IMG/VR virus record: IMGVR_UViG_3300010430_000336
Span: 1 to 30,697 of that record
Source: a virus
Reading direction: 5' to 3' (one strand)
Length of the DNA stretch: 30,697 nucleotides
Shown here: positions 1 through 23,603 of the stretch, piece after piece
Position numbering within the stretch: position 1 is the stretch's first letter
How the letters are laid out: each line of letters opens with the position of its first letter
Notes under the pieces: model-generated
What the model was told of the DNA's origin: nothing
Databases searched by the model: none
The model's input: only the letters and a program-made list of their open reading frames with translations
Made by a program: the position numbers and the translations under genes

Positions 1-132
1 GCGGGAAACGACAACTCACAGGCCTCCCCATCCTCGATGGAGAATGGTGGTGGTGATGTGAATATAGATGACCTGGCTGAAGCCACTGGTCTTAACCCAA
101 ATGGAGCTGGTAACGGCGACATCAATATATAA
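1..132 (+). CDS. 3' end of an unidentified gene (partial)
   Basis: Frame 1 is open from the window edge to a TAA at 130-132. The 43 visible residues are rich in Gly, Asn, Ser and Asp (for example ENGGGDVNIDDL and NGAGNGDINI), which looks like a flexible acidic C-terminal tail. The next gene follows after 9 bases with its own Shine-Dalgarno AAGGAG, so the two are probably co-transcribed. Low-complexity acidic tails occur on phage portal and scaffold proteins, but nothing here identifies the family. Confidence 0.6.
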   Translation, partial: AGNDNSQASPSSMENGGGDVNIDDLAEATGLNPNGAGNGDINI

Positions 133-141
133 GGAGACATT

Positions 142-351
142 ATGTCTAATGATGCAACAGTAGATGGGCAAGTAGTAGACCCAGGGTTCGTTCCCTACGT
201 GCGTAAGCGTAGCGGCATCGGCCCGAAGACTGCAGGAGCTAGGCGTATGCAAAACCCTGATAGGGCTGCAATACGACTAGAGAAAGTAGAGATTGGTATG
301 ATGAAATACAATGCTCTTTTCTCTCGTTTGGGTGTCTTTGTTACACCTTAA
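142..351 (+). CDS. small basic hypothetical protein (69 aa)
   Basis: The ATG at 142 follows AAGGAG (132-137) at close spacing. The product is rich in Arg and Lys (YVRKRSGIGPKTAGARR) and has no membrane segment. It is the last gene before the 339-base non-coding stretch 352-690, so transcription from it would run into the structured RNA candidate. I do not recognise the family. Real gene likely; function unknown. Confidence 0.6.
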   Translation: MSNDATVDGQVVDPGFVPYVRKRSGIGPKTAGARRMQNPDRAAIRLEKVEIGMMKYNALFSRLGVFVTP

Positions 352-367
352 GCGATTGGCTAGCGGC

Positions 368-511
368 GGGTATGCTCTCCCTGCGGGGTCGGCTGCGCTG
401 ATACGAAATGAGTAAGCAAGTCAAGGGCTGCCGAAGGCAGAGCGTAGCGAACCCTTTACTTAGCGACACGAATGAGTACAGTCAGCTTTAGCCCCCAAAG
501 GGGACATACCC
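368..511 (+). ncRNA. candidate structured RNA with nested helices
   Basis: Complementary segments nest in order without crossing: GGGTATG 368-374 with CATACCC 505-511; TCCC 378-381 with GGGA 501-504; GGG 386-388 with CCC 494-496; GGC 391-393 with GCC 491-493; GCTGA 397-401 with TCAGC 482-486; AAGT 418-421 with ACTT 458-461; AAGGG 423-427 with CCCTT 452-456; and a terminal hairpin CTGCC 428-432 / GGCAG 436-440 with loop GAA. The large internal loop between the fifth and sixth helices carries two near-identical copies of ACGAA(A)TGAGTA, at 403-414 and 468-478, one on each side. The element lies between two plus-strand genes and upstream of the early promoter. All pairs are Watson-Crick, so the strand is inferred from its neighbours. 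No known RNA family is recognised. Confidence 0.55.
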
Positions 512-516
512 AATGC

Positions 517-573
517 AATTTATATCTCAATGTTTTTTTTAAGATATGTGAGAAAGGTATTGAGATATGAATT
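517..573. repeat. 15-bp inverted repeat overlapping the early promoter
   Basis: Arms AATTTATATCTCAAT (517-531) and ATTGAGATATGAATT (559-573) are complementary at 14 of 15 positions, separated by 27 bases that begin with a T-run (533-540). The right arm contains the -35 box TTGAGA of the promoter at 560-588. This placement suits an operator for a dimeric or looping repressor. An RNA hairpin ending upstream transcription is less likely, because the T-run sits inside the loop. Confidence 0.6.
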
Positions 574-588
574 TACTTGGCGTATAAT
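560..588 (+). promoter_or_regulatory. sigma70-type early promoter
   Basis: TTGAGA (560-565), a 17-base spacer, then a perfect TATAAT (583-588). Transcription would start near 595 and give a leader of about 95 bases before the ATG at 691. The -35 box lies in the right arm of an inverted repeat, suggesting repression. It would drive the early small-gene and helicase operon. Confidence 0.75.
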
Positions 589-2870: not shown

Positions 2871-4327
2871 TGAACTGGTCTCCTTTTCAAGAAGCGATAT
2901 TTGATGCTGTCCAGGTGGCAGAGTTTCAAAGTATCTTAGTGAATGCTGTGGCAGGTAGTGGTAAAACGACTACTATTGTCGAGGTGGCTAATAGGATCCC
3001 CCTTACGGGGATCTTCTTGGCTTTTAACAAGGCTATTGCTGAGGAGCTGGGGCAGAAATTGCCTCCGCATTTCCCAGCTAAGACTTTCCACGCTTTAGGG
3101 ATGAAAATTCTGAAAGATAGATTGGCCAGTAAGCTTAATGTGAGTGCCAGGAAAGTCAGTAACTTAATGAATGATGCCGAGGTTAATAAGGATATGGTTT
3201 ATCCTGTTAGTCAACTTGTTGGTCGAGCTAAGACCTACGGGATTGGTATCTTCTGGGATATTGAGGAGGAAGAGGCGTGGTACAATTGCCTGGATGCTCT
3301 TAGTTTAGATGTGCCGAAAGGTTTTAGTGAAGAGCAAGTTGTTAAAATGGCACAGACTTTTCTTCAAAAATCTAATAGTGTTTTAACTACGATTGATTTT
3401 GATGACATGCTGTATTTACCTTTGCTTTTACAGAGGAAATATGGTTGGGATCTGAAAGATTACCCTGTCATTATTATTGATGAGGCTCAAGACAATAACG
3501 GCATTCAGCTCGAATTGTTGAAGCAGCTTACGGATAAAGTTATAGGTGTTGGTGATAGAAACCAAGCCATCTATGCTTTCAGAGGTAGTGATTATACCAG
3601 TATGGATTTACTTTCTAAGGCATTTAATTGTCAGGAGTTTCCATTAGATGTGAGCTATCGTTGTCCACAAAGTGTGGTTAGAGAAGCACAGGAAATTGTG
3701 CCGCATATTAAGGCGAGAGAGGATGCGCCTGAAGGTAATGTCGGCATGATGGAATTGGAAGAGTTTCATGAAACGGATTGGGGTAGGGATACAATGATTG
3801 TATGCCGAACCAATGCTCCCCTTATGGAGGTGGCTTTCAAGAGACTGAAGAAACAACTGCCATTTACTATGCTAAGTAATGAGCCGCAGAAGTTAATCTT
3901 TTATGTGAAGAGTATTAAGGCTGGCGGCATCCAGGAGTTTAAGACGAGGCTGGAAGAGAAACATAATGCCGCGATGGAAGCTTTAGAAAAGGCGGGTCGT
4001 AAGAATAGGATGGCTATGGAGCATGACCGCTTTGATAGTATCTACTTCTTAGCAAGTCAGTGTGATAGTGTGCCGATGCTAGAGGCTTTGCTCAATAAGA
4101 TATTGTATTCTAAAGGAGGTCCGGCTTTGTGCACAATACACAAAAGTAAGGGTCTTGAGCGGAAGAATGTCGTTATCTTCAGAGCGGACTTGCTGCCTGC
4201 ACCGTGGGTAGTGAAGAATGATAAGCCAGAGGAGCTTCAACAAGAGGCAAATCTAGAGTATGTGGCTATCACCAGGGCACAGGATGAACTCACTTATGTT
4301 TATGGCGAAGACGACAGGAGTATATAA
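2870..4327 (+). CDS. UvrD/Rep-like superfamily 1 DNA helicase (485 aa)
   Basis: An ATP-driven 3'-5' helicase of the UvrD/Rep/PcrA type by motif order. Motif I (Walker A) AGSGKTT is at 28-34, motif II IIDEAQD at 202-208, motif III GDRNQAIYAFRGS at 228-240, motif IV SYRCP at 262-266, motif V CTIHKSKGLE at 421-430 and motif VI EYVAITRAQDEL at 463-474. At 485 residues it is shorter than cellular UvrD (about 700), as phage versions often are, with reduced 1B and 2B regions. Probably used in phage replication or recombination alongside the nuclease and Sak4-like ATPase downstream. It shares TAATG junctions with the genes on both sides. Confidence 0.93.
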   Translation: MNWSPFQEAIFDAVQVAEFQSILVNAVAGSGKTTTIVEVANRIPLTGIFLAFNKAIAEELGQKLPPHFPAKTFHALGMKILKDRLASKLNVSARKVSNLMNDAEVNKDMVYPVSQLVGRAKTYGIGIFWDIEEEEAWYNCLDALSLDVPKGFSEEQVVKMAQTFLQKSNSVLTTIDFDDMLYLPLLLQRKYGWDLKDYPVIIIDEAQDNNGIQLELLKQLTDKVIGVGDRNQAIYAFRGSDYTSMDLLSKAFNCQEFPLDVSYRCPQSVVREAQEIVPHIKAREDAPEGNVGMMELEEFHETDWGRDTMIVCRTNAPLMEVAFKRLKKQLPFTMLSNEPQKLIFYVKSIKAGGIQEFKTRLEEKHNAAMEALEKAGRKNRMAMEHDRFDSIYFLASQCDSVPMLEALLNKILYSKGGPALCTIHKSKGLERKNVVIFRADLLPAPWVVKNDKPEELQQEANLEYVAITRAQDELTYVYGEDDRSI

Positions 4328-4491
4328 TGACTGAAGAACTATGGTGTCTTATCAAAGAATATATCGATGCTCGTATTGATGAAAAAATATCTGATGATCA
4401 TGGGAGGTCAGACTGTAGCGAAGCTGTCCGTACTATGAACTGTAATGAAGACGTTAGGTCTTTTATACATGGAGATAAGAGCGATGTTTAA
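4327..4491 (+). CDS. short acidic ORF after the helicase (54 aa)
   Basis: The ATG shares its A with the helicase stop (TAATG), and the frame stays open for 54 codons to TAA 4489-4491, which overlaps the next start. It is acidic and helical at the N-terminus (MTEELWCLIKEYIDARIDEK). Translational coupling and the absence of any other gene in this stretch support it. Function unknown. Confidence 0.55.
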   Translation: MTEELWCLIKEYIDARIDEKISDDHGRSDCSEAVRTMNCNEDVRSFIHGDKSDV

Positions 4492-4693
4492 ATACACGAT
4501 TAATGTTTACCAAATACGTGGGTATAGTGGTAGCATCAAAGCTGATATTCTAAATGCTGATGGAGAAGAGGTAGCAACTACTTGGGGAGCTGGTAACGCA
4601 GTTCATCAGTGGGTGGGTGAGACTTTGAAACATCTCCATAAGGAGCATAGAGAACATATCCCGTTTCCTGTTAAGGAAGAGACTCTTACGTAA
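4484..4693 (+). CDS. hypothetical protein (69 aa)
   Basis: The ATG at 4484 is chosen over an upstream in-frame ATG at 4445 because GGAGATAAGA (4471-4480) precedes it and it overlaps the previous stop by only 8 bases. The N-terminal half looks beta-rich (KYTINVYQIRGYSGSIKADI); the C-terminal half is helical and His-rich (LKHLHKEHREHI). No known motif. Last gene before the second promoter. Confidence 0.6.
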   Translation: MFKYTINVYQIRGYSGSIKADILNADGEEVATTWGAGNAVHQWVGETLKHLHKEHREHIPFPVKEETLT

Positions 4694-4697
4694 ACTC

Positions 4698-4726
4698 TTG
4701 ACATATCTGCTCCCTGCTTATATAGT
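4698..4726 (+). promoter_or_regulatory. sigma70-type promoter for the nuclease operon
   Basis: A perfect -35 TTGACA (4698-4703), 17-base spacer and TATAGT (4721-4726). The start would fall near 4733 and the first ATG is at 4760. The spacer carries one arm of an inverted repeat whose other arm covers the start region, which would let a protein block the promoter. Confidence 0.75.
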
Positions 4727-4734
4727 GGGAGCAG
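4707..4734. repeat. 8-bp inverted repeat within the promoter; operator or terminator stem
   Basis: CTGCTCCC (4707-4714) and GGGAGCAG (4727-4734) are perfect inverse complements 12 bases apart, followed by TTTATTTATTTA. As RNA from upstream it could be a weak intrinsic terminator for the early operon. As DNA it spans the spacer and start region of the TTGACA/TATAGT promoter. Both uses are possible. Confidence 0.55.
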
Positions 4735-4759
4735 TTTATTTATTTATGAGGATATAATT

Positions 4760-5017
4760 ATGGCAAGGCAAGCGGGTCATGCTAAACAAAAAAAGAATCT
4801 GTATTTGAGGAGAGACATATGCGAACGCTACGACTTGTTCCTCACACCAATCGGTCAAGACAGACCTCCGCACGGAGCTTGGTCAAAGCTGGTGGAGAAA
4901 CTATTACGGATACACTGGAAAGAACTTCCAGAGGAACAAAAAGCTTTTATCGAGCAACAACTTTCGAGCCGCAAGGAAAAGGACACGAAGGAAGTATTGA
5001 AGCTATTGAACATGTAG
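4760..5017 (+). CDS. basic hypothetical protein (85 aa)
   Basis: First gene after the second promoter, with GAGGA (4747-4751) upstream of its ATG. Lys/Arg-rich N-terminus (GHAKQKKNLYLRRDICERYD), then two predicted helices. The charged start followed by RRDICERYD and a helix pair loosely resembles small DNA-binding regulators of the ribbon-helix-helix type, but the match is too weak to name. An overlapping frame with its own strong Shine-Dalgarno begins at 4819. Confidence 0.6.
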   Translation: MARQAGHAKQKKNLYLRRDICERYDLFLTPIGQDRPPHGAWSKLVEKLLRIHWKELPEEQKAFIEQQLSSRKEKDTKEVLKLLNM

Positions 5018-5172
5018 ATCCAAATGTATTAGCATTGGACTATAGTGGAGAGCGACCTCGGTATCAACTGTTTACTAACTACAAGACGGAGAAGTGGGAT
5101 GAAAGATTTAAAAGATTCCAAAGGCATATGGATTGCTTGGCTGGTGTTAGTAGCCGTCTGGATGTTCGCTGA
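4819..5172 (+). CDS. possible overlapping ORF (117 aa)
   Basis: An ATG with GAGGAG (4807-4812) six bases upstream opens a frame that overlaps the 85-residue gene for 199 bases and then runs alone to 5172. The part downstream of 5017 looks more protein-like (YSGERPRYQLFTNYKTEKW) than the overlapped part (Ser/Thr/Arg-rich). It may be a true overlapping gene, the remains of a gene cut by recombination, or chance, because GAGGAG also encodes part of LRR in the other frame. Low confidence. Confidence 0.3.
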   Translation: MRTLRLVPHTNRSRQTSARSLVKAGGETITDTLERTSRGTKSFYRATTFEPQGKGHEGSIEAIEHVDPNVLALDYSGERPRYQLFTNYKTEKWDERFKRFQRHMDCLAGVSSRLDVR

Positions 5173-5197
5173 AGATATAATTAACCAACTATCCTGA
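5099..5197 (+). CDS. short single-pass membrane peptide (32 aa)
   Basis: ATG at 5099 with GGAG (5088-5091) upstream; the frame ends at TGA 5195-5197, which abuts the GAGGAGG site of the next gene. The peptide has a charged start (MKDLKDSKG), a hydrophobic core at residues 9-25 (WIAWLVLVAVWMF) and a short polar tail. This is the pattern of small phage membrane peptides that act as toxins, holin-like factors or host inhibitors; which of these is unknown. It lies in a different frame from the 117-residue ORF. Confidence 0.5.
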   Translation: MKDLKDSKGIWIAWLVLVAVWMFAEDIINQLS

Positions 5198-5210
5198 GGA
5201 GGATAAAACA

Positions 5211-5441
5211 ATGACGACAACTTTCGATCATGCTCAGTTAAATGATTTTCGTAGTAAAGTCTTAGCTGGCGAAGAAATAGATGAAACTGAATTGCGAGGT
5301 GCTATTGAGTATCTTGCTAACCTTAGAGCTGGGATTGCAAGTACTGCTGCTCCTAAAAGTAAAAGTACGAAGGCTCCGGCTAAGACAAAAGCTAAGGCTG
5401 CGAAGGATGCAGAGAATATGCTTGGGGATTTGTTAGGGTGA
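5211..5441 (+). CDS. small protein with Lys/Ala-rich tail (76 aa)
   Basis: Strong GAGGAGGA (5196-5203) before the ATG. Residues 1-42 form an acidic helical domain (VLAGEEIDETELRGAIEYL). Residues 45-65 are a Lys/Ala/Pro/Ser-rich linker (APKSKSTKAPAKTKAKAAK), and the end is a short hydrophobic helix (AENMLGDLLG). The stop overlaps the GTG start of the nuclease gene, so coupled translation and a joint role are plausible. The tail may bind DNA or dock the nuclease; that is inference. Confidence 0.65.
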   Translation: MTTTFDHAQLNDFRSKVLAGEEIDETELRGAIEYLANLRAGIASTAAPKSKSTKAPAKTKAKAAKDAENMLGDLLG

Positions 5442-6445
5442 GCTTTGCGGATGAAGCTCTCGAAGCAGTAGAGGATATGGAGGCAAACCCTACTGTCGAG
5501 CTTATACCGATTGCCGATTTAACGATGCCAGAAGTGGTAGACAATACCCAACTTAGTGACTACGCCAAGTGTCCAAAGATGTTTTACTGGGCACGTCTGC
5601 AAGGACTACAACCTGGCGCTCAGTCTATTCACTTACATGCTGGTAAAGCTTTCGCTAAAGCGATGGAAGATTTTCGTGTCTGTTACTTTGGTGAGGGTGG
5701 TACATTTGACGACGCTGTAGCTGCTGGTCTTTATGCTATTATTAGGGCATATGGAGAACCAACTGAAGCTGAGTCTGATGAGTACTGGATAGCTAGTGCT
5801 AAGTCATGGGAGGGTATGGCTTGTGCTTACATCCATACTGTTCATAACTGGGATCCACGACACGATGCGTTGAAGCCTGTCACTGATGACAAAGGCAAGC
5901 CGACTGTTGAATGTTCATTTGCGATTCCCTTAGATGTAAATAACCCGAGTACTGGTTTACCCTATCTGTTTCATGGTCGTTACGACCTGTTAGCGAGTTA
6001 TGGCGGCTCTCTCTTTGTCGAGGATGATAAGACAGCTAGTCAATTGGGAGCGAGCTGGTCAGGGCAATGGGATTTAAGGAGTCAGTTCACTGGATACTGT
6101 AAGGGTGCTAAGGCATTTGGTGTCGGTGTAGCTGGTGCTATCATACGAGGGACTGCTATCCTTAAGACTAAGATCACCCATGCTGAAGCTATAGTATATC
6201 GGCCTGACTTTCTTATCGAGAGATGGGAGCATGATGTACACCATATCCTTTTGAATATGAATCAAAGTTTCGAGCAACAGTTTTGGCCGACACTTGGGAC
6301 ATTTAATGAAGGGTGCAATGCCTATGGGGGATGTGACTATAAGCAGTTATGTAGTAGTGAGAATCCTGAAGCATGGCTGTCGAATTATCATAGGAACTTT
6401 TGGGATCCGACTAACCCTGACGGGGAGGAGGTGAAGAATGATTAA
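5438..6445 (+). CDS. PD-(D/E)XK nuclease with Fe-S cysteines, Cas4/RecB type (335 aa)
   Basis: Starts with GTG in a GTGA overlap. The nuclease signature is visible: H67 in LHAGKAF, D183 in HGRYDLLA, the D-x-K triad D196-D-K198 in FVEDDKTA, and the QxxxY motif Q216-FTG-Y220. C45 (YAKCP) together with C293, C299 and C305 (CNAYGGCDYKQLC) gives the Cx(n)Cx5Cx5C arrangement of the 4Fe-4S cluster in AddB and Cas4 nucleases. The expected activity is metal-dependent DNA exonuclease. With the Sak4-like ATPase and SSB-like protein downstream it fits a phage recombination set. No cas genes or CRISPR repeats lie nearby, so a CRISPR role is not supported. Confidence 0.88.
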   Translation: MSFADEALEAVEDMEANPTVELIPIADLTMPEVVDNTQLSDYAKCPKMFYWARLQGLQPGAQSIHLHAGKAFAKAMEDFRVCYFGEGGTFDDAVAAGLYAIIRAYGEPTEAESDEYWIASAKSWEGMACAYIHTVHNWDPRHDALKPVTDDKGKPTVECSFAIPLDVNNPSTGLPYLFHGRYDLLASYGGSLFVEDDKTASQLGASWSGQWDLRSQFTGYCKGAKAFGVGVAGAIIRGTAILKTKITHAEAIVYRPDFLIERWEHDVHHILLNMNQSFEQQFWPTLGTFNEGCNAYGGCDYKQLCSSENPEAWLSNYHRNFWDPTNPDGEEVKND

Positions 6446-6686
6446 GAATCAAGCCCTCCTTAAAGTGGGGGATAAAGTTTGTTACCAACCAGCCCATCTA
6501 AAAGCTAAAGGGGAGTATGAAAATGGCCGAGTTAAAGAGATACCAGACCATACTTTTGATTATGTTCGAGTTGTCTATAATTGCAATGGCGATTGGAATA
6601 ACTTTCATAACTATACTTCAGCTCTCACAGACTTAACTGACTTAGACATGGGTTGGCAACATGGGGAGATTAGTGATGACCATTAA
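6438..6686 (+). CDS. hypothetical protein with SH3-like pattern (82 aa)
   Basis: Overlaps the nuclease stop by 8 bases, with GGGGAGGAGG (6421-6430) upstream. The sequence has the short-strand pattern of small SH3/Tudor-like domains (LKVGDKVCYQPAH, then GRVKEIPD, then VRVVYNCNGDW). Such domains bind nucleic acid or proteins, but the resemblance is only in pattern. Function unknown. Confidence 0.6.
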   Translation: MIKNQALLKVGDKVCYQPAHLKAKGEYENGRVKEIPDHTFDYVRVVYNCNGDWNNFHNYTSALTDLTDLDMGWQHGEISDDH

Positions 6687-6945
6687 TGGCAAGTGTACTG
6701 TTAAGGATTTGTGTCATGAGGAGCTGCATATCTTTGTGCAGAATCAATTGGTGCAGATGGAACTGGATAGGGAGAAAGGAGATTGGGAAGCGTACCGCTA
6801 TGAGGAAAAGCTAATGATGACTGTTGTGTTAGCTCACGTGGCCTATGCTCGGACTCCTTTGGAAGCTAGCTATGCTCATGTAGCTACGCTTCGAGTGATG
6901 GAGGGGCTAGAGATTTTGGCTGGCTTACCACATCCTGAGGGGTAA
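6676..6945 (+). CDS. helical hypothetical protein (89 aa), possible first part of a frameshift product
   Basis: The ATG at 6676 follows GGGGAGA (6663-6669) and is preferred over the in-frame ATG at 6661, which has no such site. Mostly alpha-helical (FVQNQLVQMELDREKGDW), with two cysteines near the start. It ends GAG-GGG-TAA (6937-6945). A 116-codon zinc-ribbon frame is open immediately downstream in the +1 frame without a standard start, so this may be the N-terminal part of a protein of about 205 residues made by +1 frameshifting, or of a gene broken by a 1-base change. Confidence 0.6.
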   Translation: MTINGKCTVKDLCHEELHIFVQNQLVQMELDREKGDWEAYRYEEKLMMTVVLAHVAYARTPLEASYAHVATLRVMEGLEILAGLPHPEG

Positions 6946-7288
6946 GAAGCGACCCGTAACATACCATATCCATCGGGAGCGATTTGTTGCCAATGGGTAT
7001 CGGTATGACGAGAAGCGGGAGACTCAGAATCGGTATCTGTGTAGCAGCAGATATTTTTGTTCCAAGTGTGGAGAGATATGGGCTACAGAAGATGTGGCCT
7101 TTGGTAAATTCTATAAGGTGGTTCACAAGAATTGTTCTAGATGTAGTGCCAAAGTATCTAGTGGCAGTATCCTTATTGATATATTTGGCGACCTAAACCG
7201 AGAGAGATGGGAGGGTGCTCCCTTTGATCTTTTAATATTTGAATTTCTATTATTGATGGAGAAAAAAGATGCAAGAGAATCAACTTGA
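6941..7288 (+). CDS. zinc-ribbon reading frame without a standard start; likely frameshift extension
   Basis: Frame 2 is open from 6911 to TGA 7286-7288. It contains a protein-like sequence with paired zinc knuckles, CSKC (7058-7069) and CSRC (7133-7144), 21 residues apart. No ATG, GTG or TTG occurs in this frame before the GTG at 7094, and starting there would drop the first knuckle. Entry by +1 slippage at GGG-TAA (6940-6945: re-pairing to GGT, then AAG) would join it to the upstream 89-residue protein. Alternatives are initiation at CTG 6920 or 6935, a sequencing error, or a decayed gene. It overlaps the next start by 20 bases. Confidence 0.5.
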   Translation, partial: GKKRPVTYHIHRERFVANGYRYDEKRETQNRYLCSSRYFCSKCGEIWATEDVAFGKFYKVVHKNCSRCSAKVSSGSILIDIFGDLNRERWEGAPFDLLIFEFLLLMEKKDAREST

Positions 7289-7658
7289 TGAAATGAAGGC
7301 GGCGAAGCCTATATCCGCTGAAGAACAAATGAAGGCGGCTATAGATGCGCTTACTGTTGTGACTGATAATGATGTGAGTGTAGCTATGCGGTCTAATGTA
7401 GTGCGTAGTCACATGGAACGTACAGGTAATATCCTTATGAGTAAAGCTTTCCATATGGTTGAAAAGTTTGACGACCTTATTACGCCGATAGTGTTGTTAG
7501 ATTTATCAGAACTAGGTGACGATTCACGATGGCTTTTATTTGATACAGCTTATACACGAAAGAGTACTGAGCTTATGGGTATCGCTATTGCTTGTATCGA
7601 AAATGCTAAGGCTTGTAAGATACAGATAGCTTTGGAAAATCAACAGGCTAAACTTTAG
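7269..7658 (+). CDS. helical hypothetical protein (129 aa)
   Basis: Shine-Dalgarno GGAG (7258-7261) before the ATG. Almost entirely helical and amphipathic, with Met-rich stretches (MKAAKPISAEEQMKAAIDAL, VVRSHMERTGNILMSKAFHM) and no membrane segment. Last gene before the third promoter. Family not recognised. Confidence 0.65.
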   Translation: MQENQLDEMKAAKPISAEEQMKAAIDALTVVTDNDVSVAMRSNVVRSHMERTGNILMSKAFHMVEKFDDLITPIVLLDLSELGDDSRWLLFDTAYTRKSTELMGIAIACIENAKACKIQIALENQQAKL

Positions 7659-7667
7659 ATAGGCTAA

Positions 7668-7703
7668 ACAGTTCTTGAACTGTCTATTTAGGTTTGGTAA
7701 AAT
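7668..7703 (+). promoter_or_regulatory. sigma70-type promoter with palindrome over the -35 box
   Basis: TTGAAC (7675-7680), 17-base spacer, TAAAAT (7698-7703). The -35 box lies in a perfect palindrome, ACAGTTC (7668-7674), TT, GAACTGT (7677-7683), an arrangement typical of a repressor site. Transcription would start near 7710 and serve the Sak4-like ATPase and SSB-like genes. As RNA the palindrome has too small a loop to be a good terminator. Confidence 0.65.
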
Positions 7704-7718
7704 ATATTTTCACAAATT

Positions 7719-7747
7719 GGCGTAGACTCTAAATCAGGGTTTACGCC
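7719..7747 (+). promoter_or_regulatory. leader hairpin before the Sak4-like gene
   Basis: GGCGTA (7719-7724) pairs with TACGCC (7742-7747). After a 1x1 mismatch ACTC (7726-7729) pairs with GGGT (7737-7740, one G-U). The stem starts about 9 bases after the predicted transcription start and ends just before AGAGGA. It could protect the messenger 5' end or tune translation. No T-run follows. Confidence 0.45.
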
Positions 7748-7764
7748 TAACAAGAGGATAGAAT

Positions 7765-8622
7765 ATGTCGGATACAGAAATTCCCTTTTATAAAAAGGAT
7801 ATAGAGAATGTCGATCCATTGGTTCCTGGATTTAAAACTTTTTTACTCGGCACTCCTGGAGGCGGTAAAACCAAATCCTTAGAAAGTTTAATTGATTGTG
7901 GTCTCGAAGTGTTTTGTATCTTCACAGAACCAATGGATACAATCAGTATGGAAATACGGAATCACCCAAGATTCCATTATGTATATATAGCACCATCCGC
8001 TCCTGGATTTGATGCTTTGATTAAGAATGCTAAAGACATCAATACGATGAACCAAAAAATGTTATCCCAATTAACAGGCATTGAGAAGAATAAGTATGGA
8101 CAATTTATTAAATTGCTTGAAGCGATGTCGAATTTCACTGACCAACATGGTGAATGTTTTGGAGGTGCGGATAGCTTTGGTACTAATTCTGTATTGGTTG
8201 TTGATTCTTTATCTGGAATGAACGTAATGGCAATGGATCTTGTGGTAGGATCAAAGCCGTGTAAGTCACAAGCCGATTGGGGCATAGCTATGGACAACTT
8301 AGGTCGTCTTATTAATCAGCTAACCTCCCTCCGTTGTCATTTCGTTCTCACCGGACACCTATCTTTGGACAAGGATGAACTAACTGGTCGCATGATGCAA
8401 GGAGCGGCTACGTTAGGGAAGAAACTTGCTCCCGACTTACCGAGGTTTTTTAGTGATGTCGTCAAAGCTTATAGAGTTGGCGATGAGTTCTATTGGGCTA
8501 CTAAAGATCCTATGGTTGATTTAAAATTTCGTCTCTTACCTAATGCAGATAAGATGACTCCAGGTTTCGTTCCTGTATTTGAGGAATGGAAAACTCGTGC
8601 CGCCCTAAGTGAGGATAAATAA
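7765..8622 (+). CDS. RecA-like AAA ATPase, Sak4-type recombination protein (285 aa)
   Basis: A phage P-loop ATPase: Walker A GTPGGGKT at 29-36 and Walker B VLVVDS at 143-148, then a segment LTSLRCHFVLTGHLSL typical of the RecA/Rad51-like core. Length and architecture match phage proteins annotated as AAA ATPase or Sak4, single-strand annealing ATPases that work with a dedicated SSB. The next gene encodes an SSB-like protein, which is the usual partner, and a RecB-type nuclease lies upstream. Preceded by AGAGGA and a leader hairpin. DNA binding and annealing are family inferences. Confidence 0.85.
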   Translation: MSDTEIPFYKKDIENVDPLVPGFKTFLLGTPGGGKTKSLESLIDCGLEVFCIFTEPMDTISMEIRNHPRFHYVYIAPSAPGFDALIKNAKDINTMNQKMLSQLTGIEKNKYGQFIKLLEAMSNFTDQHGECFGGADSFGTNSVLVVDSLSGMNVMAMDLVVGSKPCKSQADWGIAMDNLGRLINQLTSLRCHFVLTGHLSLDKDELTGRMMQGAATLGKKLAPDLPRFFSDVVKAYRVGDEFYWATKDPMVDLKFRLLPNADKMTPGFVPVFEEWKTRAALSEDK

Positions 8623-8673
8623 TTAGGGGCATCCTAATACCGATTGGTTTCCGATTGGACTTAAAATTAAAAT
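8622..8673 (+). promoter_or_regulatory. intergenic hairpin, tandem octamer and weak promoter
   Basis: The gap before the SSB-like gene has a small hairpin ATTAGG (8622-8627) / CCTAAT (8633-8638), a direct repeat of CCGATTGG (8640-8647 and 8651-8658), and a weak promoter-like pair TTGGTT (8644-8649), 18 bases, TAAAAT (8668-8673). This could give extra SSB-like transcript. The -35 match is poor. Confidence 0.3.
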
Positions 8674-10687: not shown

Positions 10688-10856
10688 TGACGATGAGTTA
10701 GAAGAGTTCTATATGCAGAGGAGGAAAGTTCGTCTGTATAAGAAGAAGCTATGGGCGCACCCAGAATGTGGTGACCCTGATCATCCAGGCTGCGGCGAGT
10801 GTGATGAGGAATTGTGGGATTGTGATGACAGGGAGGAGCTATGGACAAAATCTTAG
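10671..10856 (+). CDS. acidic Cys-rich hypothetical protein (61 aa)
   Basis: GAGGT precedes the ATG at 10671. N-terminal half charged and helical (DDDELEEFYMQRRKVRLYKK). The C-terminal half has four cysteines and a His in PECGDPDHPGCGECDEELWDC, which could hold one zinc ion. Ends inside the polymerase gene start (overlap 10841-10856). Unknown function. Confidence 0.55.
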   Translation: MTYQFDDDELEEFYMQRRKVRLYKKKLWAHPECGDPDHPGCGECDEELWDCDDREELWTKS

Positions 10857-12505
10857 TTGTAACTGACATGCCAGATAAACATGGTAATGTCTTAGCAGGT
10901 AGTGGTGGGATTGAGTGGACTAAACTTCTTAATGAGGTTGGTCTTGATAGGGCAGAAGATGTAGAGATCAAATGTATTATGCCTACTCATGATCCTAAAG
11001 GAAATGATCTCCTGAAGATAAATAAGAAAGATCCTAACGGTTATGATATCGGAGGGCTAAGAGTCCACAAAGATGTGGTGTTTCATATTGGTCAGTTTTT
11101 CAAGGGGTTAGATGAGAATCCGAACAGACTAATCTTTGGACTTGGAGCTATACCGATACTTGCTTTTACTGGAAGCATTAGTGTTAAACAGCAGAGGGGA
11201 AGTATGTATACTTCTCGTTACGGTAAATTCATTGGGACACATCATCCCGATACCTTTCTTAAAATGTGGGAGTGGAGATATGTTAGTAGGTTTGATTACA
11301 TCAGAGGACTCAAATATAGAGATGCCTCATTTCCTGAACCTCAGTACGATTTTACTATCGACGCCGAGTACGGAGAAACTGTGGATTGGCTCGAAGGATT
11401 ACTTAGTTCTTTGGAAGCAATTACAACAGTTGAGTCGGGTGGACTTCATCGAAAGTTGCATGTGGCTTGCGATATCGAAACCTTTAGACGACAGCAAATC
11501 AGTGTATGTGGTTTGGCAGTATCAAAAACAAAAGCAATCGCGATACCTTTTATTGACTTCTCAGCGAGGGATTACTGTCGTTGGTCACTTGACGAAGAAA
11601 CAACTTTGGTCTCTCTCATTAAACAAATCCTCACCCACCCTAATGTCGAAGTATCTGGACAAAATTTCCACTATGACACAATGTACTTTGCCCGTACTTG
11701 GGGACTCTTGCCAAGACACGATCTAGATTGTATGCACATGATGCATTCGTGTTGGCCTGGAGAGATGGAGAAAAGCCTCGCGTTTCTTAGTAGTGTCCTT
11801 TGTGAATACCATATGTATTGGAAAGATGAAGGGAAGGAGATTCATGATAAGGTCAAGACACCTGAAGATCAAATTAGGTATCTTACTTACAATGCTAAGG
11901 ATTGTGTTACTACTTGGGAAAGTGCTGAGGCATTACGCGATATATTAAATGGGAAAGGTTTGTGGGATGTGTGGGTATTTCAACAACAGATGACTTATCC
12001 TTTAGCTAAGGTCATGATGAGGGGTGTTAACTATGATACAGAAAGGCAGGTGCAATTACGCTTCCAATTCTCGGAATTGTTACGTCACTACGAGGCGTTA
12101 TTCGAACGTATTGTTCCCAGCAATCGGTATTTTCCGAACGCTAAGAAAGGATCGAGTCCGTGGTATAGAAGTCCCACTAAGCTCAAGACACTACTATACG
12201 AAATCCTCGGTTGCGAAGTACAACGTGATAAGAAAACAAAACGTCCCACAACTGCTGATGCGGCAATACAGACGCTCTATAATAAAGAACCCGTCCTCGC
12301 GCCACTACTTAAGAAATTACTTGAGTACCGAAGCATTAATGTATTTGTATCAACCTTTCTCTCACCGTCAGTTGACACAGCGACTGGGCGGATGCACACC
12401 TTTTACAATCTAAGCGGGGCTGAAACCTTTAGACTGAGTAGTAAAAAGGATGTGTATGATACCGGAGCTAACTTACAAAATATTCCTAAGGGGGATGAGA
12501 AATGA
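10841..12505 (+). CDS. split family A DNA polymerase, N-terminal part: UDG-like domain, 3'-5' exonuclease, thumb (554 aa)
   Basis: Strong GGAGGAG before the ATG. Residues 1-145 resemble the uracil-DNA-glycosylase fold of some phage polymerases (ILVVTDMPDKHGNVLAGSGG at the start, GLGAIPILAFTG 100-111, GTHHPDTFL 132-140). Residues 205-370 are a DnaQ-like proofreading exonuclease: D211/E213 in CDIET, N275 and D279 in GQNFHYD, Y350-NAK-D354. The rest is thumb and palm start, ending at NLQNIPKGDEK, the conserved element just before polymerase motif A. The stop there removes all polymerase catalytic motifs, which are encoded separately at 12875-13702. No frameshift can join the parts because two other genes intervene. 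Confidence 0.88.
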   Translation: MDKILVVTDMPDKHGNVLAGSGGIEWTKLLNEVGLDRAEDVEIKCIMPTHDPKGNDLLKINKKDPNGYDIGGLRVHKDVVFHIGQFFKGLDENPNRLIFGLGAIPILAFTGSISVKQQRGSMYTSRYGKFIGTHHPDTFLKMWEWRYVSRFDYIRGLKYRDASFPEPQYDFTIDAEYGETVDWLEGLLSSLEAITTVESGGLHRKLHVACDIETFRRQQISVCGLAVSKTKAIAIPFIDFSARDYCRWSLDEETTLVSLIKQILTHPNVEVSGQNFHYDTMYFARTWGLLPRHDLDCMHMMHSCWPGEMEKSLAFLSSVLCEYHMYWKDEGKEIHDKVKTPEDQIRYLTYNAKDCVTTWESAEALRDILNGKGLWDVWVFQQQMTYPLAKVMMRGVNYDTERQVQLRFQFSELLRHYEALFERIVPSNRYFPNAKKGSSPWYRSPTKLKTLLYEILGCEVQRDKKTKRPTTADAAIQTLYNKEPVLAPLLKKLLEYRSINVFVSTFLSPSVDTATGRMHTFYNLSGAETFRLSSKKDVYDTGANLQNIPKGDEK

Positions 12506-12702
12506 CAGAGGAACAAAAAATAGTCTTTATACAATCACAGATCTTATGCGCTACAGCAGAGATACAAGGTATGGTGGCAGAAAATTCTGATCGATTAGCT
12601 AGGGATGGTAATGTATCTTACACTGCTGAATGTTTTATGGATGTCCCTAGTCGATACGGGCTTGAGCATAACCAAGTTATCGAATATTTAAAAGGAGTTT
12701 AA
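12502..12702 (+). CDS. small protein inserted within the split polymerase locus (66 aa)
   Basis: ATGA overlap with the polymerase N-part stop and GGGGG upstream. Helical start (EEQKIVFIQSQILCATAEIQ) followed by NSDRLARDGNVSYTAECF, similar to small phage proteins of unknown role found in replication operons. It has no LAGLIDADG, GIY-YIG or HNH motif, so it is not an evident homing endonuclease. Translation is coupled to the polymerase genes. Confidence 0.6.
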   Translation: MTEEQKIVFIQSQILCATAEIQGMVAENSDRLARDGNVSYTAECFMDVPSRYGLEHNQVIEYLKGV

Positions 12703-12704
12703 TC

Positions 12705-12875
12705 GTGATTGAAGTCCGAATATCACAAGATAGATTAAAGAATCTTGACTTTGAGGATCTTTATATGAAGTTAATCGAATCTGGTATGAACCTAGATCGA
12801 ACTATTACACGATGGGATGACCCCGATACGGGTGAACTTGTCTTTCGTCAACGAGATGAAGGGGAGAAAGAATAG
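12705..12875 (+). CDS. second small ORF within the split polymerase locus (56 aa)
   Basis: A GTG at 12705 follows AAGGAG (12692-12697) at 7-base spacing; the frame ends at TAG 12873-12875, which overlaps the GTG of the polymerase C-part (TAGTG). Acidic, mixed strand and helix (VRISQDRLKNLDFEDLYMKL, then RWDDPDTGELVFRQRD). No recognised family. The start/stop overlaps and good ribosome site support real translation. Confidence 0.55.
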   Translation: MIEVRISQDRLKNLDFEDLYMKLIESGMNLDRTITRWDDPDTGELVFRQRDEGEKE

Positions 12876-13702
12876 TGGATTTATTAAAAACTTATTATCC
12901 GGAGAACTATGATGTACTCAATACTAAGGTGGTGTTACCTAATGTCAAAAAGTTATTTAAGCCAGACCCAGGTTGGGTTATATGCGATACTGATTTGGCG
13001 CAAGCTGATGCTCAAGTGGTGGCAGCTGAAGCTGATGATAGTGAACTACGAGACATCTTTGACGATCCGACTCGCGATTTGCATAATGAAAATGCACAGG
13101 CCATCTTTGGAGGTAAGCATTATCCTGCCGGTACTGAACACCCTAAGAGGCAGATTGCAAAGGGCGGGGTACACGCTGTCAATTATATGGTCGCTGCACG
13201 TACGCTGGCTGCAACGCTCGGGATTACTGTCCATGAAGCGGAACAGTTTATTGCTAAGTGGCTTAGTGCTCATCCTGGGATTGCTGATTGGCATAAGCGG
13301 ATTAGATATGAACTTAATACCAGACGATATATTGAAAATAGATTTGGAAATAGGAGGACTTTCTTGGGTCGGTTAGACCGGCATAATATAATCAATGAGG
13401 CTCTGGCTTGGATACCACAGAGTACAGTTGGTCTTATTATAAACCGCGCATGGATTAATCTTGAGAATGAGTTTAGCGATGATCAGTTGCAAGTCTTACT
13501 CCAAGTCCATGATAGCTTAGTGTTCCAAGTACCTTACGTAAACTCGAAAGAAGTGTTTACGCAATTAAAGAAACATCTGCTTATACCAGTACCGTATGAT
13601 CCCCCGCTTATAATCGATGTTGGATTAGAAGTAAGTGAGGATGATTGGGGATCGGTTAAGAAACTAGATTGGAATGACTATAATGAAGAAGCGCAGTGTT
13701 AA
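12875..13702 (+). CDS. split family A DNA polymerase, C-terminal part: palm and fingers (275 aa)
   Basis: The GTG at 12875 follows GGGGAGAAA; a TGA at 12857 in this frame rules out an earlier start. Motif A is DTDLAQADAQ (38-47, catalytic D40), motif B (O-helix) R92-QIA-K96-GGV-H100-AVN-Y104, and motif C VHDSL (catalytic D213). It begins with LPNVKKLFKPDPGW, the segment that normally follows NLQNIP, so it continues the protein encoded at 10841-12505. Unlike E. coli Pol I, the O-helix Phe762 position is His and the Glu after the motif C Asp is Ser. The two chains presumably assemble into one replicative polymerase. Confidence 0.88.
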   Translation: MDLLKTYYPENYDVLNTKVVLPNVKKLFKPDPGWVICDTDLAQADAQVVAAEADDSELRDIFDDPTRDLHNENAQAIFGGKHYPAGTEHPKRQIAKGGVHAVNYMVAARTLAATLGITVHEAEQFIAKWLSAHPGIADWHKRIRYELNTRRYIENRFGNRRTFLGRLDRHNIINEALAWIPQSTVGLIINRAWINLENEFSDDQLQVLLQVHDSLVFQVPYVNSKEVFTQLKKHLLIPVPYDPPLIIDVGLEVSEDDWGSVKKLDWNDYNEEAQC

Positions 13703-15453: not shown

Positions 15454-18400
15454 TTAAAAATCTCCTGGATATAAGTCGTCTAAGTGATCCTTAAGACGTT
15501 GGCTCTTACGCCTATCTGCTCTACCGAGTAGTCTACGTTGGCCTAGTTGACGTTTCTGTTTCACTGAACTGGATAGTGACTTGCCGTTGATTCTGAATGG
15601 TGCTAAGTTAGAATCCTGTGATAGTGTTTTATTATAGACACGTATAGCTTTACGTGCCGCAGCTTTTTGTTCACGAGTCCCATTCTTTTGTGCACGATAG
15701 AAGTCATCCATCAGACGAGAACGGCGTAACCGATAGAATGTTTCATAGTCATTCAGGACTCCGTAGCGTTCAAAAGCTCGCGTCTTCTTGGAGGGCTGGA
15801 AGCCTAATCCCATAGCTCCTAGTGTCTCGTAATACTGGAAGCGAGAGTCGAAGTCGTCTGCGGAAATACCTTCAAGGAAATCCCCCTTACGTGTAGTTAT
15901 CCCTTGATTCTCTTTCAAGTGAAAGGCTGACATAGCTTGCCGTGCAAAGGCTGGCATCACTCCAGCTACACGATGATAAGTCGAGGCATCTTCTTCAGCG
16001 ATAGCACGGTACACATTATATGCCCAACCAGCTAGAGGTCCACCTGCTGCGACAACTGCTTTACCTGTAACCTCGTTGGGGCTATCACTAGCATTATACA
16101 TACCTCTAAATCCAGGTATGATGTGTCCCATTGATATCGATCCTGTGAGGTCAACTTCAGGAACTGGTATACCAAAAGCATCCATTACAGATAAGAGACC
16201 GTTTTCTCTACCTGATAAACCATAGGTTAATGTCTCAGGATTATCAAAAAGATTATCACTTAAGGAGCGTACATCTTGACGGAACGTATCATAGTTATCT
16301 TCACCATAATATTTTTTATACATCCAGTTGAGAATATATTCCAAGTCTTGCATACCAGGGAGACCCATAACACCACCAATGGCTAGTAGGACTACTAATG
16401 CCCGACCTTGTGCATGACCACCTTCGCCTCCAGTATAAATGTTGAGAACATTCTGAAGATAATTCTGGAAGAGGAAGATGTTTGACTTGATCGGTCCACG
16501 CATAAGTGGTGCACGATTCTCACGTGAATAATCAAATTGTGTCGCAAGAATATCATCCTCGATTCTAAATGCTTTCTCTTCAGGGGATAGGGTTGCCCAC
16601 TCAGGTGTCTTGCGGCGAAACTCTAGAGCTGATAACATAGCGACACGACGATTATACTCCTCCGCTATGTTAAAGAATACAGATGATTTCTCGACGATCC
16701 ATGTGTATACTTCATTAACCTTCTGGTTACTTCCAAACCAGATTGGTGCTGACGGGTCTGCCTCTTGTGCTAAGTGTCTTGCAAAGGTTTGGTTAAGGAT
16801 ACCTCTTGATAACATCTGCTCATAGATGTATGCATCCTCTTCAACTCTAGCCCGTTTCTCTGGTGACATTTTATCAAGATTAACATCGATAGAACCACGA
16901 TAAAGCATTGCTTTTGCACCAGCATTCTTTAAGGAGTTAAGTACAAGGGCGTCAGCCTTTGTTTTAGATATACCAGAATCTATTGCCCGCTGTACAAAGA
17001 CAGGATAAGTTATCATCGGTGTTTGTGACATATTAACCACTGCCGATTTAACATTGAATCCTAAGTACATAAGGAAACCGAATTGACGTAACCGAGCCAT
17101 ATCGTTAGCGGGGTTATGAATATATTTAAAATGCTCCTGCATGTAATCGATTATGTTGCTTAGGGCTTCTACTGATACACCTTCCTCTTTGTCGAGTTGG
17201 GCTGCATCTTCTCGTAAGATATTAATCTGAAGGAACATCTTCTCACCGTGAGTTACACGTGCGATATTATTTGCAGCCGTAACCTGATAGGCAGAGAAGG
17301 TTCTCATAGCATCTTCATTATAACCTTTGACACCACCACGGCGATTCAAATGTTTCATCATCGCAGAGCCTGGACCTTTTTCCAGTTTGAGTTGTTCGAT
17401 AAATTCTTTCTGCTCAGGTGTTAGTGTTTCGAAGACTCCAGCATCCCTCATAGTCTCTACTACTCGATCTATAAATACTGAAGGCATATTCACGAGTTGA
17501 GCAGTTAAGTCATCTAGTTTAACAGAGGATGTGACTCTGTGAGGTATAGCATGGGTAGATAGTTTCTTCTCCATCTCCTTCATAAAAGCTTTCTTCTGCT
17601 TGAAGGTATCGAAAGTATAGAAGCCCGTATGTTCGTGGTCTTCGTTGATACCCCAAGTGCCATCTTCTTTTTGTGTACGAATATTGACTACATACTTCCC
17701 GAAGCGCATCATTGGAAAATAGTCTCTATTTCTCATCATATCGAAGGAGGCTCTTATCTCATCTAGGGCTTTAATAAAGCTATCTGTTACAGGAGTACCA
17801 TCGGATTCTACATACCGTATGAGTGCCTCTTGACGTGACTCAGGTGTACTCTCTGGTAGATCTAATTGGGCACGATAGAACTGGATAAAGTCATCAGTTG
17901 TTACCCTATCGTATCCTAATTGGCGAAGTCTTTTAGATATTACAGCAAGCTCCATACCATTAAGCGAGAAGCGAAATGATTCCTGTATCTCATTAAATAC
18001 TTCAAGGATCTCAGGTGTCAATGGATCTTGATTAACCTTTGTCCAAAGAGCTTGCTTCTCGGCATCAGATAATTTACGCTCAAGCTTATCTGATTCCAGA
18101 GTTAACTCAAACAGGTATCGTGATAATTGATTCGATTCTGTAGAGCCTAGACCCTTCCAGTTCTGTACAACTTGGTCGGCATTAGAGATATGTGTTTGTT
18201 TCTCATTCGCCCAGTCACGTACAGCAGTCACGAAATCGCGAAGTGGCTGGATAGCATTACGTATTGGTGTCTCCTGGAATCGCTGTGCCAATTGACGAAT
18301 GTTCATAACCGTCATCAGTATGGGGCGATAGACAGGATGCTCCATTAACCAGTACCATCTTTTAGTACGCTGTTCATTGGCTTGATAGGCTCTCTGGATA

Positions 18401-23189: not shown

Positions 23190-23603
23190 TTATACCTCTC
23201 TTACCACTACATTATAGTGATGATTAGCTTTGAAAGCTTCTGTTGCGATCTTAGCTGCGCCATCACGACACCAACATTCCATCGCGCTACAATCATTATC
23301 TTTCACAAATTGAATAAGAGCAGGCTCTACCTCTGACCAACGATCAACAGGAAGTCCACCCATAGTTACTAAGCGTATCGCACGCCGTCTGGGATAAGTG
23401 ATAAGCATAACAGTAAAGACGCCTATCAATTCCATACCATCGAATACACCGAGACAACCTTGCTCGCCTCTACTGATGCACTCTATAATATCTGCCACAG
23501 TATATTCCCCATCAGCCTGATCTATCGCCGACTCTAACATAGGGATAATTTCTTTATGTCGCTTACCTGCCTCAAATGCAGATAGCTTTTCTAACTTTAC
23601 CAT
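23190..23603 (-). CDS. GNAT-like protein at the podovirus internal-protein position (137 aa)
   Basis: The ATG at 23603 is chosen because the longer in-frame ATG at 23621 has no ribosome site; GGAG lies 13 bases before 23603. The pattern helix-strand-strand-helix, with CLGVFDGMELIGVFTVMLIT and a later AMECWCRDGAAKIATEAFKAN, resembles acetyltransferases of the GNAT fold. T7-like phages have a GNAT-like gp13 of similar size just before their internal virion proteins. The acetyl-CoA pyrophosphate loop is not clear, so enzyme activity is uncertain. It overlaps the previous stop as ATGGTAA. Confidence 0.55.
   Translation of the reverse strand: MVKLEKLSAFEAGKRHKEIIPMLESAIDQADGEYTVADIIECISRGEQGCLGVFDGMELIGVFTVMLITYPRRRAIRLVTMGGLPVDRWSEVEPALIQFVKDNDCSAMECWCRDGAAKIATEAFKANHHYNVVVREV

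Follow-up and report, generated by a model that had tools for sequence, protein, structure and literature searches.

The subject of this analysis is a 144-nt non-coding element at positions 368-511 (+ strand) of a linear virus record of 30,697 bases (IMG/VR record IMGVR_UViG_3300010430_000336; the window, below, means this whole record), which lies between open reading frames (ORFs) at 142-351 and 691-1011. It had been singled out from its letters alone as a set of nested helices, closed by GGGTATG/CATACCC and capped by a CTGCC-GAA-GGCAG hairpin, and proposed to be a regulatory or packaging RNA or a ribozyme-like element. RNA folding reproduced both the closure and the cap, and the helices drawn by hand were correct. 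The twin motifs ACGAAATGAGTA and ACGAATGAGTA do face each other, forming two tandem G.A internal loops, and TAGCGA is present at both of the positions given for it (445-450 and 461-466). No ORF accounts for the fold. Coordinates of these and other features are collected in Table 1. The evidence below suggests that the element is probably a promoter or priming site that acts as single-stranded DNA (ssDNA).

As RNA, the + strand of 368-511 folds into a single rod with a minimum free energy of -60.1 kcal/mol, against a mean of -43.9 for shuffled sequences (z -4.07); none of 200 shuffles equalled it in this comparison, which the original prediction had proposed as a check. The reverse strand folds less strongly (-54.3, z -2.72), and folding with DNA energies gives moderate values on both strands (z -2.07 and -2.25). 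The fold is strong, though not unique in the genome: in a 144-nt sliding scan of this phage (39.8 kb, including the extension described below), it ranked 7th of 1656 windows.

Searches for a known identity were negative. Rfam 15 covariance models gave no match to 368-511 at gathering or relaxed thresholds, and ARAGORN found no tRNA or tmRNA at the element, in agreement with the earlier remark that it resembled neither a tRNA nor a familiar RNA family. BLAST searches against phages and plasmids returned chance-level matches only, except that the homologue in contig L116 (see below) led to microviruses; an exact search for the twin motif found only the overlapping contig, and a single-sequence covariance model run against 46 related phage records found only itself. 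The ORFs searched around the element included no reverse transcriptase gene (a criterion for a retron non-coding RNA), and no gene for an HNH or omega-RNA-type nuclease was found near it. Hammerhead and attC readings were dropped by eye, the core letters or end boxes being missing.

An overlapping contig (L002/L003, >99.8% identical) extends the window 9,127 bases upstream. The extension carries terminase and portal genes on the minus strand, and the window plus strand carries the replication genes: a UvrD-type helicase, a split PolA, a Sak4-like protein, a ParB-methyltransferase fusion, and a DUF3987 “primase.” The relatives of this phage are distant (Vibrio phage ABTNL-3, with helicase 40% and terminase 41% identical; Microcystis phage Mel-JY34; and others). 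A second rod, on the minus strand (RNA2; L002 9968-10112, window about -4846 to -4702), immediately precedes the terminase/portal operon. It is the second-strongest structured window of the sliding scan, and was discovered through its folding, independently of the AGCGTAGCG motif. The two rods have in common GTCAAG, AGCGTAGCG, CTTTAC, and a C.T mismatch within that stem, as well as a bulged A beyond the core stem and a C-GA-A/U-GA-G tandem pair. Adjacent stem bases are compensatory between them (AAGGG/CCCTT vs. AAGTAG/CTACTT; AAGT/ACTT vs. TTGT/ACAA). After each of the two rods come an A+T-rich hairpin and then a sigma-70 promoter; the A+T-rich hairpin of the window is possibly part of the cassette.

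Homologues were sought by core-pattern scans of viral and genome collections, which added 25+ long hairpins to these two, from tailed phages, two filamentous phages, microviruses, and conjugative-type elements. In the first scans most matches were unstructured, as expected by chance, and the structured ones usually had significant flank complementarity. With a stricter pattern, GTCAAGG/CCTTKAC, 25 of 31 distinct matches were extended rods, with CCTTGAC in 20 and CCTTTAC in five, so the C.T mismatch is common but not obligatory. What is conserved among the relatives is the apical core (420-459 of the window element), and the twin ACGAA...TGAGTA motif is absent from them. GTCAAG is identical in RNA2, L069, L106, L117, L099, L084, L094, L108, L081, L116, and the Eel River basin pequenovirus, an identity that the search pattern imposes among the homologues. 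The compensating base changes anticipated by the original prediction were found across the family: there were 25 double-change cells (13.7 ± 3.1 in shuffles), and the covariation score was 0.381 (0.144 ± 0.035 shuffled).

The contexts of these hairpins are varied. Among tailed phages, two lie upstream of the helicase block (L069 and L112/G047); G047 is a distant relative, its proteins 22-27% identical, that shares the layout of the window phage and has the hairpin in the same place, ahead of the helicase/replication block. That of L117 is upstream of terminase/portal, that of L106 is between portal and capsid, and L134, L136, L140, L148, L150, L153, and L154 are contigs that have the hairpin together with terminase, portal, or PolA genes. 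In the filamentous phages L073 and L081, it is between genes for a pIV-type secretin and a rolling-circle Rep. Contig L116 carries a G2P-type Rep, and its hairpin matches Microviridae non-coding DNA; in the Eel River basin pequenovirus the hairpin is again in non-coding DNA, and has the same C.T mismatch. The hairpin of L108 neighbours a gene for a TrwC relaxase, and that of L084 a gene for an ArdC protein.

The TTTAC(A)/TTGAC(A) of the conserved core reads as a -35 sequence. In the 3′ arms of 27 structured members, the best -10 matches 16-18 nt past it sum to 86, against 53.4 for shuffled sequences (0 of 4000 as high); in 11 members the -10 matches at least 4/6. For the 5′ arms, taken as reverse complements, the sum is 56 vs. 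51.2 (p=0.16), despite the arms being largely complementary, and unstructured matches that carry these core letters give p=0.29. (One contig, L083, was excluded from the final tests; the effect holds without it.) Alignment on the -10 of the 12 members in which it is good (at least 4/6) gives pairing probabilities with the 5′ arm of 0.98 immediately ahead of the -10, 0.79 at -12, 0.31 at -11, and 0.30 at -10. In the family profile the stem duplex thus gives way at the point of promoter melting by sigma-70, as in an open promoter complex. The cleanest -35/-10 pairs are those of L136 (TTGACA-18-TATAAT), L152, L145, and L146. RNA2 has TTTACA-16-TAAAAT in its 3′ arm and, in the complement of its 5′ arm, TTGACA-16-TATAAG.

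Table 1. Features of the element and its surroundings, in window coordinates.
Feature	Position	Strand	Basis or remark
Whole hairpin (rod), proposed ssDNA promoter/priming hairpin	368..511	+ (folded, template-bearing strand)	RNA and DNA folds; core and architecture common to paralogue and homologues
Twin motif copy 1, ACGAAATGAGTA	403..414	+	Half of two tandem G.A internal loops; single occurrence in genome
GTCAAG, 5′ arm of conserved core	420..425	+	Template side of -35 duplex; C422 mismatched to T457
Apical hairpin CTGCC-GAA-GGCAG	428..440	+	Fold
AGCGTAGCG, conserved apical motif directly before 3′ arm	441..449	+	Common to RNA2; overlaps TAGCGA (445-450)
CTTTAC, 3′ arm of conserved core	454..459	+	Pairs with 420-425
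-35-like hexamer TTTACT	455..460	+	Inside duplex
Twin motif copy 2, ACGAATGAGTA	468..478	+	Other half of tandem G.A loops
-10-like hexamer TACAGT	477..482	+	4/6; spacer 16; CAG unpaired in DNA fold
Adjoining A+T-rich 25-bp hairpin	515..573	+	Between rod and next promoter
Ordinary sigma-70 promoter TTGAGA-17-TATAAT	560..588	+	11/12; for ORF 691 onward; outside hairpin

The reading that we consider probable is that of a strand-specific ssDNA promoter or priming hairpin, of the Frpo/ssi/complementary-strand-origin type, initiating second-strand synthesis. We infer from the sequence the formation of ssDNA during infection, the binding of RNA polymerase, and the synthesis and direction of a primer. 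The + strand, exposed as ssDNA in replication, would fold into the rod; the stem would rebuild a double-stranded -35 and spacer, with the -10 at the opening of the stem, much as in an open promoter complex. The RNA polymerase of the host could then bind, with the 5′ arm and 5′ flank serving as template, and a short RNA made toward lower coordinates would prime second-strand DNA synthesis. The opposite-strand paralogue at about -4.8 kb would prime the other way, giving two facing starts for strand-displacement replication. The genes flanking family members have no fixed orientation (left, 15 plus and 10 minus; right, 18 plus and 9 minus), which fits priming better than a conventional gene promoter. 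The ArdC gene of L084 and a 68-aa gene of L117 do start on the side toward which the hairpin transcript would run, and these members fit gene expression in the Frpo sense.

Several observations weigh against this proposal. The -35 letters are fixed by the search pattern, which leaves the -10, the bubble, and the stem extension as the only independent evidence. The copy in the window (TTTACT-16-TACAGT) has a weak -10, which in the RNA fold is paired apart from a bulge and in the DNA fold opens at CAG only, and its DNA-energy z (-2.07) is modest and similar on both strands. The microvirus and some GC-rich members have no clear -10. The Vibrio relative ABTNL-3 has rods at equivalent places, without this core. 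Finally, the minimal M13 origin promoter is independent of -10 and -35 sequences, working through the downstream-DNA channel (PMC7430646).

As one alternative, the + strand might encode a structured phage RNA, either a cis-acting leader or a small RNA (for example an HK022 put-like antiterminator, or an RNase III processing site). The stronger RNA fold of the + strand and the compensating changes in the stems are in keeping with this, as are the positions of the hairpin in several tailed phages (intergenic, on the coding strand, before operons) and of the two copies here (RNA1 and RNA2), ahead of two divergent operons. Under selection as RNA, G.U pairs should outnumber those A.C mismatches which on the complement read as G.U. 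There are 28 G.U pairs in 404 on the folded strand and 24 in 397 on the complement; the folded strand is thus not enriched in G.U, and the counts give no indication of such selection. An RNA role would also leave the -35/-10 pattern and the bubble at -11 unexplained, and sits poorly with the presence of the hairpin in microviruses and filamentous phages. The ordinary sigma-70 promoter of the window is downstream of the rod, so its transcript would exclude the rod. Overall, we regard a structured RNA as unlikely. As to put-type antiterminators, these suppress termination and have their place in the leader, between the promoter and the first genes; the window rod is upstream of its local promoter, and may or may not act in this way. 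The original prediction was right about the ordered fold, the non-coding location, and the compensating changes, but the regulatory, packaging, and ribozyme-like identities that it offered are unsupported, given a core that embeds a -35/-10 with the -10 in a bubble, the G.U counts, and homologues in ssDNA phages. The region may in addition give rise to a transcript.

Comparison with known systems bears on the preferred reading, a hairpin that acts as ssDNA. The Frpo and ssi promoters of F and ColIb-P9 are ssDNA stem-loops that rebuild a -35 and a -10, with transcripts usable as mRNA or primer (PMC11541004; PMC9849209; PMC8406263). The likeness to Frpo and to ssi2-ssi3 is in the imperfect ssDNA hairpin, with a spaced -35/-10 in one arm and the -10 toward the base. 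A mispaired -10 imitating an open complex is a trait of Frpo, matched by the family profile (n=12) and in part by the window copy. Another trait of the Frpo type is transcription by RNA polymerase of single-stranded, SSB-coated DNA only. The Frpo of F has for its apex an A+T-rich hairpin on the template strand, upstream of ssb; the present family differs in having an apical AGCGNAGCG rather than an A+T-rich UP hairpin, in occurring in tailed phages, and in having no one gene regularly downstream, on the side that Frpo drives. A search of the F leading region with the core letters gave no match at Frpo, the apical sequence of which differs, and an open-access literature search for Frpo in phages returned plasmid papers only.

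The minus-strand origin of M13 is upstream of the plus origin in the intergenic region (PMC5405960), and this complementary-strand origin is primed by host RNA polymerase (PMC7430646). M13 (L170, NC_003287) has a GTCAAGC...GCTTTACGG hairpin ahead of this plus origin, between genes IV and II (about 5626-5676). The M13/f1 minus origin thus shares with the family a viral-strand GTCAAGC/GCTTTAC stem, with the same C.T mismatch; its apical loop differs, having no AGCGNAGCG, and there is no clear -10 nearby. Viral-strand intergenic hairpins of this type are seen in L073, L081, and M13, while the window phage is a double-stranded DNA (dsDNA) tailed phage.

The CS-6 motif of plasmid single-strand origins is TAGCGA/T (PMC10378824; PMC6395029). 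The ssoA origins resemble the element in being ssDNA structures of ~160 nt primed by RNA polymerase, and the CS-6 TAGCGA has a counterpart in the apical region. The ssoA RSB (TTTATGCCGAGAAAA; PMC6395029) is absent from 368-511, as judged by reading the sequence. The ssoA origins are described for Gram-positive plasmids, not for tailed phages. By analogy, the element appears to work like the Frpo/ssi, ssoA, and M13 origins, with a signature of its own, and we do not assign it to any one of them.

Another alternative is an ssDNA initiation site with AGCGNAGCG as the recognition motif of a primase or primosome in place of RNA polymerase, either the host DnaG/PriA or the phage DUF3987 protein annotated as a primase. 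AGCGNAGCG resembles both CS-6 and the AAGCGG of phi-X174-type primosome sites, and, as the microvirus and GC-rich members have no clear -10, a primase may recognise it. The other members do show -10 enrichment, with the correct spacing and bubble position, and overall we find a primase site quite improbable. Ordinary dsDNA promoters, either back-to-back and divergent or single within an inverted repeat serving as operator, are very unlikely: although RNA2 reads as a promoter on both strands, with its TTTACA-16-TAAAAT pointing at the structural operon, and L083 resembles a normal divergent promoter region, the -10 enrichment is confined to the 3′ arm, the arms pair as far as -12 but not inside the -10, and gene orientation is inconsistent.

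For the ssDNA promoter/priming hairpin, the two opposite-strand rods of this phage recall ssiA and ssiB of RSF1010/R1162, two opposite-strand ssDNA initiation sites for strand-displacement replication that are primed by the plasmid RepB′ primase; the likeness noted is one of layout. A broader proposal, which seems to us about evenly balanced, is that tailed dsDNA phages widely carry an uncatalogued class of ssDNA promoter (core GTCAAG-AGCGNAGCG-CTTKAC, with the -10 open in a stem bubble), common to ssDNA phages and conjugative elements, through which the host polymerase could prime strand-displacement replication or drive the expression of genes on the displaced strand. If the ssDNA reading is right, a single hairpin family would tie together second-strand initiation in microviruses, filamentous phages, conjugative elements, and tailed phages, and would supply a sequence signature for locating such initiation sites in genomes. 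It would also indicate host RNA polymerase priming in tailed phages of the PolA/DUF3987 type, for which we know of no described origins, and would make available naturally pre-opened promoters in which to study the use of the -11 base by sigma-70.

Some other structures met in the searches were not counted as family members or as paired sites. L083 has a perfect -10, but is an ordinary divergent intergenic region in which flank pairing is insignificant (p=0.295). ABTNL-3 (L055, MF497422) has three mutually similar rods, at 65-157 (+), 38838-38920 (-), and about 23252-23342 (+), each followed by a CAATCG...CGATTG hairpin; two are at operon starts and one at a convergent end. They lack the GTCAAG core and have no convincing -35/-10 by eye, and may represent a different kind of initiation or leader element. 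L116 has, at 4370-8661, a pair of Rep genes and a hairpin on each strand, as in a microvirus with an inverted duplication; the contig is probably chimeric, and the two copies were not taken as paired sites. L074 has a near-perfect long inverted repeat at 3587-3644 (reverse-complement coordinates), with TTGACA-17-TATAAT in both arms and no AGCGNAGCG core.

Elsewhere in the window phage, the DNA polymerase A gene (10841-13702) is divided between ORFs 10841-12505 and 12875-13702, which a small ORF separates; it is also split in ABTNL-3, and is a single gene in Mel-JY34. The minus strand at 15454-21087 encodes an 1877-aa protein, the C-terminal part of which resembles DarB-like antirestriction proteins. 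Palindromes of the TTTACGTAAA type are repeated in two intergenic regions (L003 2487-2520, and window about -4550 to -4510), and are possible operator or phage-specific promoter sites.
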